Shown piece after piece: positions 35,857 to 43,484 of a stretch of 64,000 nucleotides of DNA. The notes beneath the pieces were generated by a model. That model worked only from the letters and a program-made list of their open reading frames with translations. It was not told the origin of the DNA and did no database searches. A program made the translations under genes and the position numbers. The stretch lies in contig NZ_QAOU01000003.1 in NCBI RefSeq assembly GCF_003050965.1, positions 372,001 to 436,000 of the forward strand, given 5' to 3'. Position 1 is the first letter of the stretch. The number at the start of each line of letters is the position of its first letter. This DNA comes from Nitrosospira sp. Nsp2. Its GTDB lineage: Bacteria; Pseudomonadota; Gammaproteobacteria; Burkholderiales; Nitrosomonadaceae.

Positions 35857-36948
35857 ATGAGTCTCAAATGCGGTATCGTTGGTCTGCCCAACGTCGGGAA
35901 ATCCACTCTCTTCAACGCGTTGACCAAGGCGGGTATCGCCGCCGAAAATTATCCGTTCTGCACTATCGAGCCCAATATAGGCATTGTCGAAGTTCCCGAT
36001 CAGCGTCTCGCCGCACTCTCTGCAATCGTCAAGCCGCAAAAGATACAGCCTGCCATTGTCGAGTTTGTAGATATCGCCGGCCTTGTTGCGGGCGCCTCCA
36101 AGGGGGAAGGACTGGGCAACAAGTTCCTCGCTACCATTCGAGAAACCGATGGCATCATCAACATGGTGCGATGTTTTGCCGATGATAACGTTGTGCATGT
36201 GTCCGGCAACGTTGATCCAATTTCGGATATTGAAACCATACAAACCGAATTGGCGTTGGCTGACCTGGCTACATTGGAAAAAGCGCTCCAACGCGAAAGC
36301 AAACTTGCCAAATCGGGGGTCAAGGAAGCGATCAAGTTTGTGGCGCTGCTCGAAATGGTGCGGGCGCACCTTGACCAGGGGAAGCCTGTCCGAAGCCTGG
36401 GGCTTGACAAAGAACAAGAGCAGCTGTTGCAGCCCTTGTGCCTGTTGACGGCCAAGCCCGCGATCTACGTTGCCAACGTCGACGAAAAAGGTTTCACGAA
36501 TAATCCCCTGCTGGAACGCGTGCAGGAGTACGCGGCGGGCGAGGGCGCACCGGTTGTCGCCATCTGCGCCGCACTGGAGGCGGAAATTGCCGACATGCCG
36601 GATGAGGATAAGCAGATCTTTCTTGCGGATATGAATCTTGAGGAACCGGGACTAAATCGCCTGATCCGTGCCGCCTACCAGTTGCTTGGCTTGCAGACAT
36701 ATTTCACTGCCGGCGTGAAAGAAGTGCGCGCATGGACCATATCGAAGGGTGATACGGCGCCGCAGGCCGCTGCCGTGATCCATACCGATTTCGAGAAAGG
36801 GTTCATCCGTGCCGAGGTCATCAGCTATGACGACTTCATCGCCTGCAACGGCGAGCAGGGCGCGAAGGAGGCAGGCAGGATGAGGCTGGAGGGCAAGGAG
36901 TACGTCGTCAAGGATGGCGACGTGATGCATTTTCGGTTTAACGTCTGA
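35857..36948 (+). CDS. ychF: Redox-regulated ATPase YchF
   Basis: An Obg-related P-loop protein (ATP-preferring) of 363 residues. The G1 loop GLPNVGKST is near residue 8, the DxxG region [20 protein letters not shown] is typical, and the C-terminal TGS domain begins around [15 protein letters not shown]. Last core gene before the accessory island; its final 15 bases include a short sequence repeated at 42.2 kb. Confidence 0.97.
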
Positions 36949-37160
36949 GCAGACTAATTAACGTTCAATCATGTTCGCCGATGTTTGAGAATACAAATAA
37001 CTCCATACCGAAAGGACTGAGAGATTTCACTTCTTTTCGTGGGAATGGCTGTTTTGGCGTGTAGCAAGAATCGGCCAGAGCGGACATGTCGAAACAATAG
37101 GTCAGCGCCAGTCGCCATACTGATCGCTGGACTCCAATTGGCTAGTCCTACTCAGGCCTA

Positions 37161-39158
37161 TCAAGTATCAGCGATGAACCCTCGTTCGCGCCATGTCGCC
37201 CGCACGTAGTCCTTGAACACGTAGCCCTCCCCGAGCTCCAGATTATCTGCATGGTCTGAGACGATAATCTGCGGCATCACCTCGGTCTTCATCTCGGTTT
37301 CCGCACAGAACTTAGCAAACTGCGTGAACATGTTGGTCACAGAGTTTAGGTCGGTGTCCAATTTCCCTTCCCGTTTTGCCTGCTTTGCCAACTCTGTTGG
37401 CTCAAATGCCTCGCCGTCATCCAGCGAAGCCGGGAAATACACCTGAGTCGGCTGATCCAGAAACAAGATTGGCGGGATCTTGCAGCCCTCGTCTGAGCGC
37501 GCAGCAAATTGGTAGTGCAGCGACATGAACAATGCCAGGTGCGAGTGCAGCCAGTTCGCCCCACTACCCATCGAGCGCAGGTAAACTCGGGTCTTTGGGT
37601 CACGCTGGTACCAGAGATCAAATGACTCGAGATCGAACTTTAGGTTGACCGGCTTGTAGGTCTCCTCGAAATCGAAATATTCGCCGATCTCGCACATCTT
37701 GGTATTGATCGCGTCTTGTAGACCGTTCAAGCGCTCGGCGACGTTGTACTCCGCCAGTCGCTCGCCAAGCACCTTCACCCGCTCCTTCCAGCGTTTCTCC
37801 TCTTCTGCTAATTCCGACAGCGGTTTATCGATCTGCCGCTGGATTGCTATTTCTAGCTTCAGCTTTGCCTTCATGGCCTGCTCATCAATCGACTTCGACG
37901 TTTGCAGCCTCTCAATCTCCTCATCGAGCGGTTGTAGGTCAGCCTGGGTACGTTTGAGTTACTCGTTGATCTCTTGGAGCTCACTTTCGACTTTCCGGCG
38001 TTGATTCACAAAGCTCTCACGCGCGTACGCAGACAGTTCCAGCTCATCATTCAACCACTCGATGGCAGCGGCAAGCTTGTTCGCCTCGGTTACCGGGACG
38101 TACGTCTGAGTTTCGCACAATGGGCAATGGGACTTGTCCAATTCCGTCGAGTCGGGAATACCATCGCCGGTCAGATCCAAACCGAATTGCACCGCAGACT
38201 TGATGGAACCGTTGATCAGGCGCAACTGTCCCTGCGCCTTACGCTTCTTGACGAGGATGTCGGCCCGTTCATCCAGCAACTTCCCACGCAGAATTTCAAC
38301 TTGGTTCGATAGCACTTGGACCCTGACCAAGCGTCCCGAGATGATCTTCAACACCGATTTGGGCTTGGACCAGATCTCCTCTGCCGTTATCTCGACTAAC
38401 GGAGCACCTGCCAAAGCCTTGAACTCAGCCAGATACCGGTCATTCTCCTTAATACTGTCTTCCTTACGCTTCTCCTGCTGGGGAATCTGCGTCTGAATCT
38501 TCTTCAGCTCGTACTTGGCCCGTTCGAAGTCCTTGGCCAGATCAAAATATTCCTCGCCCACCAAGCCCATCAGAATCTTGAAATGGTCAATCGCTTGGTC
38601 TCGTTTGTATTTTTGATCGAAGCGATAGAAGATTGCGTGCTTATTCGCTACCAAGTTCTGGTGCTGCAACATGAAAGACGAGAAGCTACGCACCGAAGGG
38701 GTTTCGGCTTTCCATCGACCGCTTGCCTTGATGAACGGGTCCTCGTCGATGTTCTCCATTGTTATCGCAAAGTGCCGCCCTACGCTCTTCTTGAAATCGT
38801 CCAAGGGCATGAAATGGCGGTTATCAAAGAACGCTGTCGGTTGCTTGAGTAAACCCAACAGGTAGTCGGAATCACTACCTACCACTTCCCGTAGGAAACA
38901 CCGGTTGGACTTCGCAAGACGCGCCGTTACTAGCATATACGTCGGGAATTGGAAGACCGTGAAGAACAGCTCTGAACGATCCGTAATCACCCCCACCGGA
39001 GTAGTATCCTCAGTACTGCCTAGGCAGTAATCGAAGATTTCGATGATCGCACTTTTACCCGTCGACGACTTACCGGTTATGATGTTTAGCCCCGGCCGAA
39101 ACGGCACGTAGTGGAGCTTGTTCTCGTTATCCACCACACCATGTACTTCACAAAGCAC
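37161..39158 (-). pseudogene. ABC-3C system ATPase (DUF3732), split by an in-frame stop
   Basis: A 665-codon reading frame that is continuous except for one TAA at 37959-37961. The first 399 codons carry the N-terminal ATPase half: Walker A region ITGKSSTGKSAIIEIFDYC and a long helical stretch with HCPLCE, a likely zinc-binding Cys pair. The second half continues in the same frame past the stop and holds the ABC signature region MGSGANWLH, the Walker B LFLDQPTQVYF and the H-loop VSDHADN, as in DUF3732 proteins. The start is GTG 39158, overlapping the end of the middle-component gene. Readthrough, an internal restart at ATG 37874 or a sequencing error are alternatives to inactivation. Confidence 0.82.
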
Positions 39159-39159
39159 T

Positions 39160-39621
39160 TCATAGCGATTTCAACCCTAACGTCCTGTAAATAGAAACGA
39201 CGTTTACATCTGCAAAGACCGTGGCAAGCTTCTGCCCCACCTCCAGGAGCTCTTTGTTTGCGTTGGCCGTTCGCACTTCCCCGATCGATCTCACCGATAG
39301 GTTGTCGGCAACCTTGATGCCGCGCTCTGCGGTTAGGATCAGCAGCGCTGCATTGGTTAGCGACTTGAAGTCCTGCACTCTTGCCGCGAGGCCCACTAAA
39401 CGGCTCTGCTCCTTACACAGCGTTCTCAGCGAGCTAGTGGCCCGGGCGCCCATCAAGAAAGTGCGCATGGGCGGATAAAGCACCATCGGTAGCACTAGAT
39501 AACTGAGCAGCACGTCTTGCTCCTTGGCGTCCGAGAACTCATAAAACCGATGGATGACGGGCGCCAGAGCGAATGGGGTGCGCTGGAGCGTAAATAGATG
39601 ATCAATTGGACTGCTGCTCAT
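39160..39621 (-). CDS. ABC-3C system middle component
   Basis: A 153-residue helical protein between the CTD-type gene and the DUF3732 ATPase gene, matching the middle-component position of ABC three-component systems. It contains YLVLPMVLYPPMRTFL, typical of these small proteins. ATG 39621 overlaps the upstream stop codon (ATGA), so it is coupled; a TTG at 39636 is an alternative. These systems were described computationally as likely biological-conflict modules. Confidence 0.7.
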   Translation of the reverse strand: MSSSPIDHLFTLQRTPFALAPVIHRFYEFSDAKEQDVLLSYLVLPMVLYPPMRTFLMGARATSSLRTLCKEQSRLVGLAARVQDFKSLTNAALLILTAERGIKVADNLSVRSIGEVRTANANKELLEVGQKLATVFADVNVVSIYRTLGLKSL

Positions 39622-40778
39622 TCCCACATCTTCCAATGAAATTCTTGTGACCGAGTGCCCGGTTCTTCGTCTGCCAGCATCTGGTATATCCCGTTGCGAA
39701 ATTCGATAGGGGTGTAGTCGTATCTACAGAGCCGGTCAACCTGCAGCGCGCATCGATCAAAATAGAACGCTTGTGACTTTTTGTGCAGGTCAATGATGCT
39801 CAGGCTAGACGGGCACTGGGCAAGATAACTACGCCAACTACTGATATGGGATCTGTATTGATTGCGCCTATAGTCCTCGATGTCCGACTGAGGAACGGTG
39901 CAATCCTTGATCAGCTCGTAGATATAGTGTTGCGCATGTAACAAATCTACTGTCGCTTCAAGGATACTGCTATCAGCACCAATCTCACTGAGCTTTTCAG
40001 CGAACCGGCGAGTTTGAACATCCATCTCACTCGCCTTGCGCTCTAGCGCCTTATAATCCACTTTGGGAAACTTCCAAGTTCCCACCATGTATCGTGAAGT
40101 CAACTCGCGAGTCTTATCAGTAAACGCTTCGCTGGTAATCTGCCAACTAGTGGTCATGAAACTCGGGCTGGTCATAAAGCCGAACATATCGTTCATGTAA
40201 TCATCGCCGTGATGAGCACTGATGGCGCGCAAGTGCTGTTTTTTATAGTGCGCGATGCGCTCCATAAGGCTCGACTGGTCGGTGACGATCTGAATCTTTG
40301 AGAGTGCATCCATGAGATCTACGCGGCGATCATCCGCAAGCACTTTACGCTGCAATTCTAAGCTCCTGGAAGCAGTCATCTTGCCGGACCCCGCCAGCCT
40401 TGCTTCCGAATTGCTGCGAATATCCTCCAGCACCTGCAATCTTTGCTTAGCGGTTAGACTCCCCCGATTTTTCAGGCTCGTATCTTCACCGAGGCTCTGT
40501 GTCGTCAGCAGAACTAGGGTGGAGTACTGTCGAAATCGGGACTCTGGCTTGAGCCAGTTATTCAACGTGTTCCAGAAGTTAGGGTGGCCATCGGTCAAAT
40601 TGTCGGCATAGTACTTAACCTCCATCTGTTTTTTGTCCGCGACTGTTACGTCACCAAAGACTTCAATCCATAGGATTTCACCATCCTCAAGCGAGTGGCA
40701 ATACTCCATTGCCACCAGTATCTGGTACTTGAGGGCTATAAAAAGTTTGGTTGCGTCAAAATCGAGTTTTTCGTCCAC
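39618..40778 (-). CDS. ABC-3C system CTD-type protein, possible nuclease-like N-terminus
   Basis: A 386-residue soluble protein, first gene of the three-gene operon. GTG 40778 has GAGGGG close upstream, which overlaps the stop of the hsdM remnant. Residues 37-57 (WIEVFGDVTV..KQMEVKYY) show an acidic-x3-Asp then Glu-x-Lys pattern (Glu39, Asp43, Glu53, Lys55) like PD-(D/E)xK or DUF4297-type nucleases. The C-terminal region, with LCRYDYTPIEFRNGIYQML, resembles the ABC-3C C-terminal domain. The nuclease idea is inference; the family assignment comes from context and pattern. Confidence 0.65.
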   Translation of the reverse strand: MDEKLDFDATKLFIALKYQILVAMEYCHSLEDGEILWIEVFGDVTVADKKQMEVKYYADNLTDGHPNFWNTLNNWLKPESRFRQYSTLVLLTTQSLGEDTSLKNRGSLTAKQRLQVLEDIRSNSEARLAGSGKMTASRSLELQRKVLADDRRVDLMDALSKIQIVTDQSSLMERIAHYKKQHLRAISAHHGDDYMNDMFGFMTSPSFMTTSWQITSEAFTDKTRELTSRYMVGTWKFPKVDYKALERKASEMDVQTRRFAEKLSEIGADSSILEATVDLLHAQHYIYELIKDCTVPQSDIEDYRRNQYRSHISSWRSYLAQCPSSLSIIDLHKKSQAFYFDRCALQVDRLCRYDYTPIEFRNGIYQMLADEEPGTRSQEFHWKMWE

Positions 40779-40784
40779 AGCCCC

Positions 40785-41721
40785 TCAAACCTTGGAAGCG
40801 GCGCTAGCGCCACCGATGTCCTTGAGCCTCTCCTTGTCCACTGCGTTGACGTTGAGGGGCGGATTGGCGAGGACGAAGTCGAATTGGCCGGGGGCGGTAT
40901 GCGGGTCGTCGTAGTAGCTGTTGACGTTGCCACCGTGGCGGACGTCACCCTCTAGCCTATGCACGGCGAGGTTAAGGCGGCATAGGCGGCTGGTATCATC
41001 GGCCTTCTCGACGCCGCAGATGGCGAGTTCGGCAGCGGGGTTCTTCTGGGGCTCCGCGACAAAGCGCGCGGACTGCACGAACATGCCGCCTGAGCCGCAG
41101 GCGGGGTCGAGGATGCGGCCGTGGAAGGGTTCGATGACCTCGGCCAGCAGCTTGACGATGCTGCTCAGCGTGTAGAACTCGCCGCCCTTCTGTCCTTCGG
41201 TACAGGCGAACTCGCCGTGGAAATATTCAAAGATGCGGCCGAAGGCATCGAAATCGATGCCGGCGCGAATTTCGGACACCTTCTTTAGCAGCTCCTTGAG
41301 CCGGGTCCTAGTGAAGAGGTTATAGGTCTTGGGCAGCAAGCCGGCGAGCTGCAGGTTGTGCTTTTCGATCTCGCGCATTGCACCATTCACCTTGGGGCCG
41401 ATGTCGGCCACCTCGGGCAGCGTTAGCAGGTAGTCGAAGTGCGCCCCAGGGGCGAGGTAGAGGATGCCTTCGGCGTGGTAGGCGGTGGGTTCATCAACCC
41501 GGCTACCTCTGCGGGATGATGCGCTCGCCCCCTTCGAGCTTGCTGCGCTGGAGGGCGAAACAGATTTCGGCAAAGCGCAGGAAGACCAGGCCAAGGATAG
41601 GTCCGGAATGTTCCTGCGCCTTGAGGCCCGAATTGGCTCGGAACTGGTCGGCGGCATCCCACGGGCGCTTTTCGAGCGACTTGGAAGCGGAGTCTTTTTC
41701 GGAAGGAGCTATCCAATGCAT
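40785..41721 (-). pseudogene. Type I restriction-modification methyltransferase remnant (hsdM)
   Basis: An N6-adenine methyltransferase fragment in two frames. Codons from ATG 41721 give the N-terminal HsdM domain ([19 protein letters not shown], then [13 protein letters not shown]) until a TAG near 41503. The frame then shifts by one and continues from [20 protein letters not shown] through the AdoMet motif DPACGSGGMF to the catalytic FVLANPPLNV. The protein breaks off right after, at KDIGG, where the ABC-3C operon starts. The usual 3' half, hsdS and hsdR are absent. A non-functional relic. Confidence 0.88.
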
Positions 41722-42239
41722 AAATAATCTGCCTCAACGAGCTCGAGGCCGCTGTCGTGGACGGCTATTGATGTAGGGCCATCGGCTGCGGTCTCCCTTA
41801 AGTTGTATTCTGTCTCGGTAAAGCGGTATTCATTCAGCCGAGGAAGGTTGTTATTGTCCGTTAAATTCCACTGACGAGCTATAGCATTATCCGTTGCCGT
41901 TGCCGGACGACAGGGAGCCGTCCCGAAAAATCGATTGATCGCGACCGTTTTTCAGTAGATAGTGTTAACAGACAAGGCTAAACACTCAGCTATGTCGTTC
42001 GCCTGAGCCGTGATGAGTGAGCGTGAAGGTGAATAGCTCGGGAGATATCGCGAGAAGAATGAATCAATAACTAGAGTCAGTTCTGTCGATACGCCAGTTG
42101 ACCAGAGGGAAATCCAAAACCGGTACAAAATCGGTAGGAACTCCTCAATGCGAGTTACTACGGGCAACTCAAGCTGCTTTTTCCGGTTTAACGTTTAATA
42201 GTACGTTGGATTGCTCCGCACCTTAGCGGACACTCCAGG
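41722..42239. other. 518-bp stretch without recognisable gene
   Basis: AT-richer than its neighbours. Frames of 60-70 codons exist but show no motif or start signal. It ends close to the CGGTTTAACGT repeat at 42184 that is also found at the end of ychF. Confidence 0.5.
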
Positions 42240-42889
42240 TTATTTTCCGGCACTCCACCGGGAATTTCGCATCAGGCTGCAAAAGTCCGTGCGGTGGAAA
42301 TGGGGATCCTTGTCCGCCACCACATCGGCGAGGCCGGTGCCATGAGTGGTCTCAGGCCGACGCTTCAGACCGTCGTAAAGGGCTTGCAGAAGGTCCTCCG
42401 AAAGTCGTGGTGGATGCGGATGAGCCGTTTCGAGAGCATTCCCCTGCGTATGGGTGAATTGATCATAGCCAAGGCCCACAAGGTCCATCATAACGCCTGC
42501 GGCAGTAAGTGTGGCGATGGGGTGCAGATGCACGGGAATTCCCGGCGTCGTGTGCAGCGCGATCGCAAGCCAGACTCTCTCGATAGCAGCTTCCGAAATG
42601 CGGTGGCTCCGCAGGAAATCGCGCGCGGTATTGGCGCCATCCACCTCGAAGCGCAACCGGCTTTCTCGAAAGCCGGCGGTCAGGCCGACATCATGGAACA
42701 TGGCTGCGGTGTAGAAAAGTTCCGGATCGAAGCTCAGACCCTTACGCTTTCCAGCCAAGGCGCCCCAAAATAGACCCTGGTAGAGTGCTCAAATAGAAAG
42801 CCACTCTCGGTATCTTTAATGAACTGCGTTGCTTCGCGCGCGTTTGGCTTATTGAGGATTCTAACGCCGGAAATTTCGCTGACGATCAT
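42240..42889 (-). pseudogene. HD-domain phosphohydrolase, frameshifted
   Basis: The start ATG 42889 opens a frame with ISGVRILNKPNAREATQF and the HD-family FEHSTRVY motif, but it shifts frame inside TTTTGGGG around 42765. The continuing frame gives ALAGKRKGLSFDP, the metal motif AAMFHDVGLTAG, and LHTTPGIPVHLHPIATLTAAGV down to the stop at 42240. Restoring one base would give a protein of about 216 residues similar to small HD-domain hydrolases. Substrate unknown. Confidence 0.8.
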
Positions 42890-42931: not shown

Positions 42932-43170
42932 CTGCAGCGCGACTTTACAGCAAGTAAGCCCAACACCCGGTGGGTGGCGTACATAACTTATGTGCGCACC
43001 CAGGAAAGCTGCTTTATCTGTGCATAGTCGTGGATCTGTACTCGGGCATCCTGGTAGGCTGGTCGATGAGCCACTGCCAGGATCGGCAACTGGTGTTACA
43101 AGCCGTACTCATGGCGCTGTGGCAACGTAAGGCAAAAACTACGGTCGTCCTGCATTCGGATCGCGGCTGA
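42932..43170 (+). mobile_element. IS3-family transposase (orfB) remnant
   Basis: Truncated integrase core. The first frame gives LQRDFTASKPNTRWVAYITYVRTQE; after a frameshift the next gives YLCIVVDLYSGILVGW and HSDRG, ending at a stop. DD(E) motif parts D and the HSDRG region remain; the 5' and 3' parts and inverted repeats are not visible. Confidence 0.85.
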
Positions 43171-43289: not shown

Positions 43290-43484
43290 ATGAAGTACAA
43301 GGTTCTTATTACCCCGGTGGCCCCCTCGATCGACACTCACCCCAATTTCACCGGCGTTCTGGCGGATTATGAGGTTGACGCCAGCTCGGAATCCGAAGCG
43401 GGGGACGTTGCCTTTGACCGTTTCTGCCAGGAGAACCCCTTCCGCTCTCATCGCCGTGATGATTTCATCATAAATGTGAGTTAA
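43290..43484 (+). CDS. Small hypothetical protein
   Basis: A 64-residue acidic protein beginning MKYKVLITPVAPSIDTHPNF. GGAGGG lies about six bases before ATG 43290, so I favour it over the ATG at 43272. No signal peptide or membrane segment; no family recognised. It sits between the IS remnant and the core fmdB gene. Confidence 0.6.
   Translation: MKYKVLITPVAPSIDTHPNFTGVLADYEVDASSESEAGDVAFDRFCQENPFRSHRRDDFIINVS

Follow-up and report, generated by a model that had tools for sequence, protein, structure and literature searches.

We analysed a 64,000-nucleotide stretch of the Nitrosospira sp. Nsp2 genome (hereafter the window; positions 372001–436000 of contig NZ_QAOU01000003.1, in an assembly of 3.46 Mb and 21 contigs) in which three genes, lmuA, lmuC, and lmuB, lie together on the minus strand. 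These genes are very probably a three-gene Lamassu defence system (type II, ABC three-component (ABC-3C), DdmABC-like) that came in together with a portion of a type I restriction-modification locus, on a segment inserted at the ychF 3′ end, and whose sensor gene was later inactivated. An initial annotation had presented the trio as a little-known ABC-3C system with no settled mechanism. That view does not hold: a review places both ABC-3C and DdmABC in the Lamassu superfamily (PMC10586767), the addendum of a second paper reports release of the effector (PMC12409362), and relatives of all three proteins have solved structures, with weak matches for LmuA and LmuC. What had been an unknown ABC-3C system can thereby be assigned to a named family whose mechanism has been reported. 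The locus is an ordinary Lamassu member in a broken copy, and the site at the tail of ychF is the more interesting part.

Family and gene order of the trio

The order on the minus strand is lmuA (39618–40778), lmuC (39160–39621), and lmuB (37161–39163), which correspond to the effector, the middle component, and the SMC-like ATPase. The effector gene lmuA starts with a GTG preceded by GAGGGG and encodes 386 amino acids; lmuC, an ABC-3C middle component 3, encodes 153. Both frames are open and intact, and lmuB is a pseudogene with two lesions. The identification of the trio as ABC-3C is borne out by the Pfam MC3 and DUF3732 models, by the PADLOC LmuA, LmuC, and LmuB models, and by a gene order shared with relatives. 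The two overlaps described earlier fared differently: lmuA and lmuC do share 4 bases (39618–39621), but the 3-base overlap with the third gene is absent, the GTG at 39158 lying one base past the lmuC stop.

Eight close relatives (L006–L013) were found in Paraburkholderia, Massilia, Cupriavidus, Pseudomonas, Kosakonia, and Cedecea, and a ninth (L073) on an IMG/VR contig. Their LmuA proteins are 44–54% identical to that of the window over nearly the full length (50% for L073), and the lmuA-lmuC-lmuB order is shared by all eight and by L073.

The middle component has a Pfam MC3 match (PF20131) at 2.4e-30 (105.5 bits, against a cut-off of 23.2) and a PADLOC LmuC match at 8.9e-11. A nine-row LmuC profile weakly matches a solved chain named ‘LmuC’, 9hqu_D, at 0.021; the only other row among solved sequences is a kinase at 0.56. 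MC3 is presumably the later name of the DUF6521 of DdmB. The presence of DUF6521 in DdmB, and the naming of the three-gene form as Lamassu type II, are described in PMC12409362.

For LmuA, the PADLOC model (PDLC03848) covers residues 4–379 at 4.2e-43. A Pfam scan of the same protein gave no match up to E 10, neither to a nuclease model nor to a C-terminal domain (CTD) model, and the sole NCBIfam match, at 0.05, was judged meaningless. Thus the proteins of 153 and 386 residues both match models of the families proposed for them in the initial annotation, the larger one by PADLOC LmuA alone. Among four other LmuA proteins scanned, Pfam CTD7 is above its cut-off in L014, below it in L009 and L073, and without a match in L006. 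A nine-row LmuA profile gave four distinct matches to solved sequences at E ≤ 1 (9.8e-4, 0.0011, 0.047, and 0.049), with 9nxx among the best chains at 9.8e-4 and 9hqu at 0.047; all are deposited as ABC-three component C-terminal-domain proteins. The best alignments fall mainly at profile positions 168–328, chiefly in LmuA’s second half, and this match, along with the PADLOC model, places an ABC-3C C-terminal domain on LmuA. Profiles were needed here: phmmer searches of PDB sequences with single LmuA and LmuC sequences returned no match at E 0.1. Toward the other end of the protein, E39, D43, E53, and K55 are invariant in all nine aligned LmuA sequences (window, L006–L009, and L011–L014; L010 and L073 were left out of this alignment), a pattern that by eye is PD-(D/E)xK-like. 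It falls where a Lamassu with a Cap4-type effector would carry its Cap4/DUF4297 nuclease domain, at the LmuA N terminus, but has no Pfam nuclease match.

Both pieces of the third gene are recognized by the PADLOC LmuB model (2.2e-65 and 3.1e-39), and the second is a DUF3732 domain (PF12532, 1.4e-47, above the Pfam cut-off). Each piece matches the same three distinct solved DUF3732 chains (9hqu, 9ny5, and 9uxl; best 4.8e-18), and the LmuA and LmuB matches come partly from the same entries (9ny5 and 9hqu). The motifs of the ATPase are kept: a Walker A (GKSSTGKS), a hook (CPLC), a signature (GSGANW), and a Walker B in which E is changed to Q (FLDQP). Taken together, the LmuA, LmuC, and LmuB matches identify the trio as a Lamassu system.

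Two lesions in the sensor gene

An uninterrupted LmuB of about 650 amino acids, which a working system needs, is not present in the window. Both the reading of open reading frames (ORFs) and the alignment with relatives place an in-frame TAA at 37959–37961, so the third unit, taken initially as one ATPase gene, lacks a continuous open frame. The first piece is a 399-amino-acid ORF (37959–39158) that starts with a GTG and ends in the TAA, which is codon 400 of that frame and cuts the protein past the hook; the second, in the same frame, comprises 265 codons (37161–37958), of which 237 follow from its first start, an ATG at 37874. At the column of the TAA, the residues encoded in L006–L013 are, in that order, D, Q, E, I, Q, E, E, and S. 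The other lesion lies in the start region (39138–39163). The DNA around the relatives’ conserved ATG is also present in the window, at 39161–39163, where that start codon overlaps the lmuC stop by 4 bases (39160–39163), but one base has been lost near codon 8; the ATG is out of frame with the rest of the gene, and translation from it would now end after 25 residues. Among the nine close relatives (L006–L013 and L073), LmuB is without exception a single ATG-started frame of 667–670 amino acids.

We also searched 369 genomes of the class with the LmuB model, scoring three candidates per genome and deriving no prevalence, and counted as near-full those rows with E ≤ 1e-25 and at least 500 of the 611 model positions. 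Twelve such rows are among the matches listed, and a stop occurs only in the window’s row; a partial row below the cut (G612, 7.3e-15) also shows a stop. The model matched 367 of the 369 genomes and all 14 controls, near-universally because it also catches other coiled-coil ATPases.

With lmuB interrupted, the locus is a Lamassu member by descent, broken, and not a complete system. One review reports all Lamassu components to be essential wherever tested (PMC10586767, section 9) and describes LmuB as the likely sensor, generally with the E to Q change in Walker B and often with a zinc hook; because of this, we infer a loss of function. Judged from its sequence, this Lamassu copy was most likely inactivated recently and is now inactive. 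The implication is that a defence locus can look as if it works and be dead, with its sensor gene broken and its effector gene intact.

In a working system, LmuB, a Rad50/SMC-like protein, would hold the LmuA effector inactive together with LmuC and would recognize abnormal DNA, for instance phage or plasmid ends and hairpins, as proposed for other Lamassu systems. LmuA would then be released and form tetramers, both of which are reported for other Lamassu systems, and the tetramer would cut DNA, harming or killing the infected cell, as has also been proposed. The addendum of PMC12409362, citing preprints, has LmuA liberated on activation and a tetramer activating its Cap4 nuclease; hairpin and DNA-end sensing are listed in PMC12904381. 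In the window, the internal stop and the out-of-frame start would keep the complex from forming normally, which would leave LmuA and LmuC without a full sensor, and LmuA alone is presumably harmless.

Could LmuB be split and still work? The 399-amino-acid half (Walker A and hook) and the 237-amino-acid half (signature and Walker B) might be made separately and join through the coiled coil and the ATPase head. In favour, each half retains its motifs and matches both LmuB models and solved chains, the break comes after the hook, and there is no sign of faster change. However, the second half offers no start codon until 28 codons after the TAA, and by eye that one has no clear ribosome-binding site, the conserved start of the first half is out of frame as well, and no split occurs among the 11 other near-full rows of the matches listed or in the nine close relatives. 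The sole interrupted remote copy, L014, has a LmuB frame that by eye runs into unrelated, transposase-like DNA at a contig end. We therefore regard a split but working LmuB as very unlikely, and we give slightly less weight still to its consequence, a natural two-piece Lamassu ATPase in which two polypeptides form a split SMC-like sensor guarding LmuA.

It is somewhat easier to imagine, though still unlikely, that both lesions are sequencing or assembly errors and that the system is intact. The evidence comes from one genome, and a further copy for comparison is missing, as the locus is absent from G795, a genome of the same species. Against this, both lesions lie outside long single-base runs, the neighbouring ychF, aspS, and nadA-like genes read as full-length frames, and two separate lesions fall within a single gene, next to an hsdM that is clearly disrupted.

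In the LmuB, LmuA, and LmuC trees alike, L006 is the sister of the window (the trees were built without L014, and those for LmuA and LmuC also without L010), and each time the window’s branch is the shorter: 0.19 vs 0.52 for LmuB, 0.37 vs 0.72 for LmuA, and 0.23 vs 0.59 for LmuC. Shorter branches and kept ATPase motifs fit a recent loss, or a sequence error. A further reading is that LmuA and LmuC are retained as a pair, under a different regulator or in a different role. Both genes are intact, and lmuA has by eye a good ribosome-binding site; yet the components are reported to be jointly essential, none of 10 loci has an LmuA-LmuC pair wholly without LmuB, and a recent loss explains the intact neighbours equally well. 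We give the two-gene unit hardly any credence.

Several points weigh against a recent inactivation of a Lamassu system. LmuA and LmuC are open and conserved, unlike what would be expected of a long-dead operon. The lesion at the start may be mild, since the in-frame GTG at 39158, five bases beyond the conserved ATG, might still serve as a start for the frame that follows, and so for the ATPase half, the first strand of the protein then being altered. Both lesions are known from the assembled sequence of one genome, not from reads, and the effector chemistry of this LmuA is predicted from its motif and its relatives.

A segment at the 3′ end of ychF

The gene ychF (35857–36948, plus strand) lies beyond the 3′ (lmuB) side of the trio, and the sequence around it points to a site-specific insertion at its 3′ end. 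The end of ychF (left copy, 36930–36944) is repeated on the plus strand at 42180–42197, where FRFNV and a stop are encoded again; this right copy, a match of 15 bases with one mismatch, is a candidate far attachment site. The apparent inserted segment, 36949–42179, holds the Lamassu genes and an hsdM remnant. When the gap was shuffled 60 times, no such match exceeded 14 bases, a length reached in six of the shuffles. The DNA behind the right copy resembles the sequence that comes after the ychF stop codon in G422, a different genome of the genus (53 bases at 75%, E 0.002). Within it, the 18 bases at 42206–42223 (plus strand) correspond to those directly behind that stop codon; the 18-mer occurs once in its own genome, and its 17-base core occurs in 2 of 23 genus genomes (its own and G422), the G422 copy sitting right behind ychF. 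The putative element thus has both a direct repeat of its target and old flanking DNA behind the far copy, and a chance origin of the tail repeat was set aside on the basis of the shuffles and the G422 flank.

An 11-base core of the ychF tail, allowing at most one mismatch, was found on the plus strand in 5 of 12 other gaps of the genus (L031, L032, L038, L039, and L083) and on the minus strand in none; 100 rounds of shuffling gave at most 3 of 12. The core was derived from the window, so the window is not counted, nor is a core match beyond its gap. Behind ychF, the gap to the fmdB-like gene ranges from 684 to 13,629 bases, with differing content, in 11 same-genus genomes (12 gaps were fetched, and L036 was left out as its contig ends); in the window it is 6,787 bases.

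What these gaps contain supports the defence-island setting, beside a relic restriction system, that the initial annotation had proposed. Upstream of lmuA on the minus strand, 40785–41778 is an hsdM remnant with some upstream DNA, of which 40807–41778 is 85% identical at the DNA level to the intact hsdM of G419. The remnant’s reading frame is disrupted near codon 64, and the gene is truncated near codon 305, with the junction about 28 nucleotides ahead of the lmuA start. G419 has its type I restriction-modification locus (L031) at the same ychF site, with hsdR-, hsdS-, and hsdM-type genes open, in contrast to the window, where a cut and frameshifted hsdM stands alone. In the same-species genome G795, the sequence agrees with the window as far as 36951 and then from 43206 onward (96.6% and 98.6% identity); the DNA in the interval is different, so the Lamassu locus is absent from this genome. 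At its ychF site is instead a PD-Lambda-4-like gene (L083:10766–14674), encoding a 1302-amino-acid alpha/beta-hydrolase protein that matches PD-Lambda-4_A at 1.7e-49. Even two genomes of the same species thus carry different defence cargo at the ychF 3′ end, and in this genus the site looks like a recurrent insertion point for such cargo.

Some observations argue against this picture of insertion. On its own, the tail repeat would be a weak sign, because a second 15-base repeat exists in the same gap. Seven of the 12 other gaps lack the tail core, which also has one plus-strand match, with one mismatch, in 55.8 kb of control DNA from the window outside the gap. Several other gaps of the genus contain no obvious defence gene by eye, which speaks against defence cargo in every gap. 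The segment was presumably placed by an integrase; no integrase was noticed among its ORFs, where no integrase model was searched. In the literature, the only reports that we found of insertions at ychF are pneumococcal, which is no proof of novelty: two papers on Streptococcus pneumoniae describe prophages inserted next to ychF, either upstream of the gene or between it and dnaN (PMC6375853, PMC10383233).

Other features of these gaps were recorded. In the window’s gap, the other direct repeat of 15 bases and one inverted pair were taken as chance. Between the tail copy and fmdB lie an HD-domain ORF (42240–42758; PF01966, just above the cut-off) and, by eye, a transposase-like fragment (about 43024–43169), which are further debris in the gap. 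Just before fmdB is a small plus-strand ORF (about 43290–43484; MKYKVLITPVAPSIDTHPNFTGVLADYEV...); by eye a similar one occupies the same place in L041, and the stretch aligns in several gaps of the genus. L031 also contains a 702-amino-acid DUF262-like neighbour (by eye; PADLOC PDC-M55C, 7.1e-28) and a 735-amino-acid GTPase-like ORF (by eye). An ammonia monooxygenase-family gene is present in the window’s genome.

Distribution and comparison with known systems

The trio recurs elsewhere, and the initial annotation is not refuted on that count: LmuA, LmuC, and LmuB sequence occurs together in all nine of the loci L006–L014, although the set is broken in L010 and L014. In L010 (Cupriavidus; L010:7190–9846) there is an insertion between lmuA and lmuC, at the lmuA end, and lmuC is frameshifted, with LmuB intact. 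Counting the window, 3 of the 11 loci examined (window, L006–L014, and L073) are broken. By eye, integrase-like ORFs lie upstream of the genes in L008, L009, and L073, in which, unlike in the window, LmuB is one open frame.

LmuA relatives occur in 4 of 399 genomes of the order, the window’s own included, with one other marginal (9.7e-4). Of 23 genus genomes, two have the C-terminal half of LmuB: the window’s own and G423, where it is only 31% identical. One plasmid record, from Cedecea neteri, has a relative, and so does one viral contig among 28 pattern matches. Because the closest relatives found belong to other families, the window’s Lamassu was probably acquired horizontally.

The closest known systems are Lamassu type II and DdmABC of V. 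cholerae, together with the solved chains 9hqu, 9hqx, 9ny5, 9nyg, 9uxh, 9uxk, and 9uxl. Unlike the solved Lamassu systems, the window has an interrupted LmuB, its LmuA is distant from theirs (9.8e-4 at best by profile, and no phmmer match), and its effector class is predicted. As in Lamassu type II, however, there are three components: a DUF3732 LmuB with a hook and the E to Q change in Walker B, an LmuC, and an LmuA with a C-terminal ABC-3C domain.

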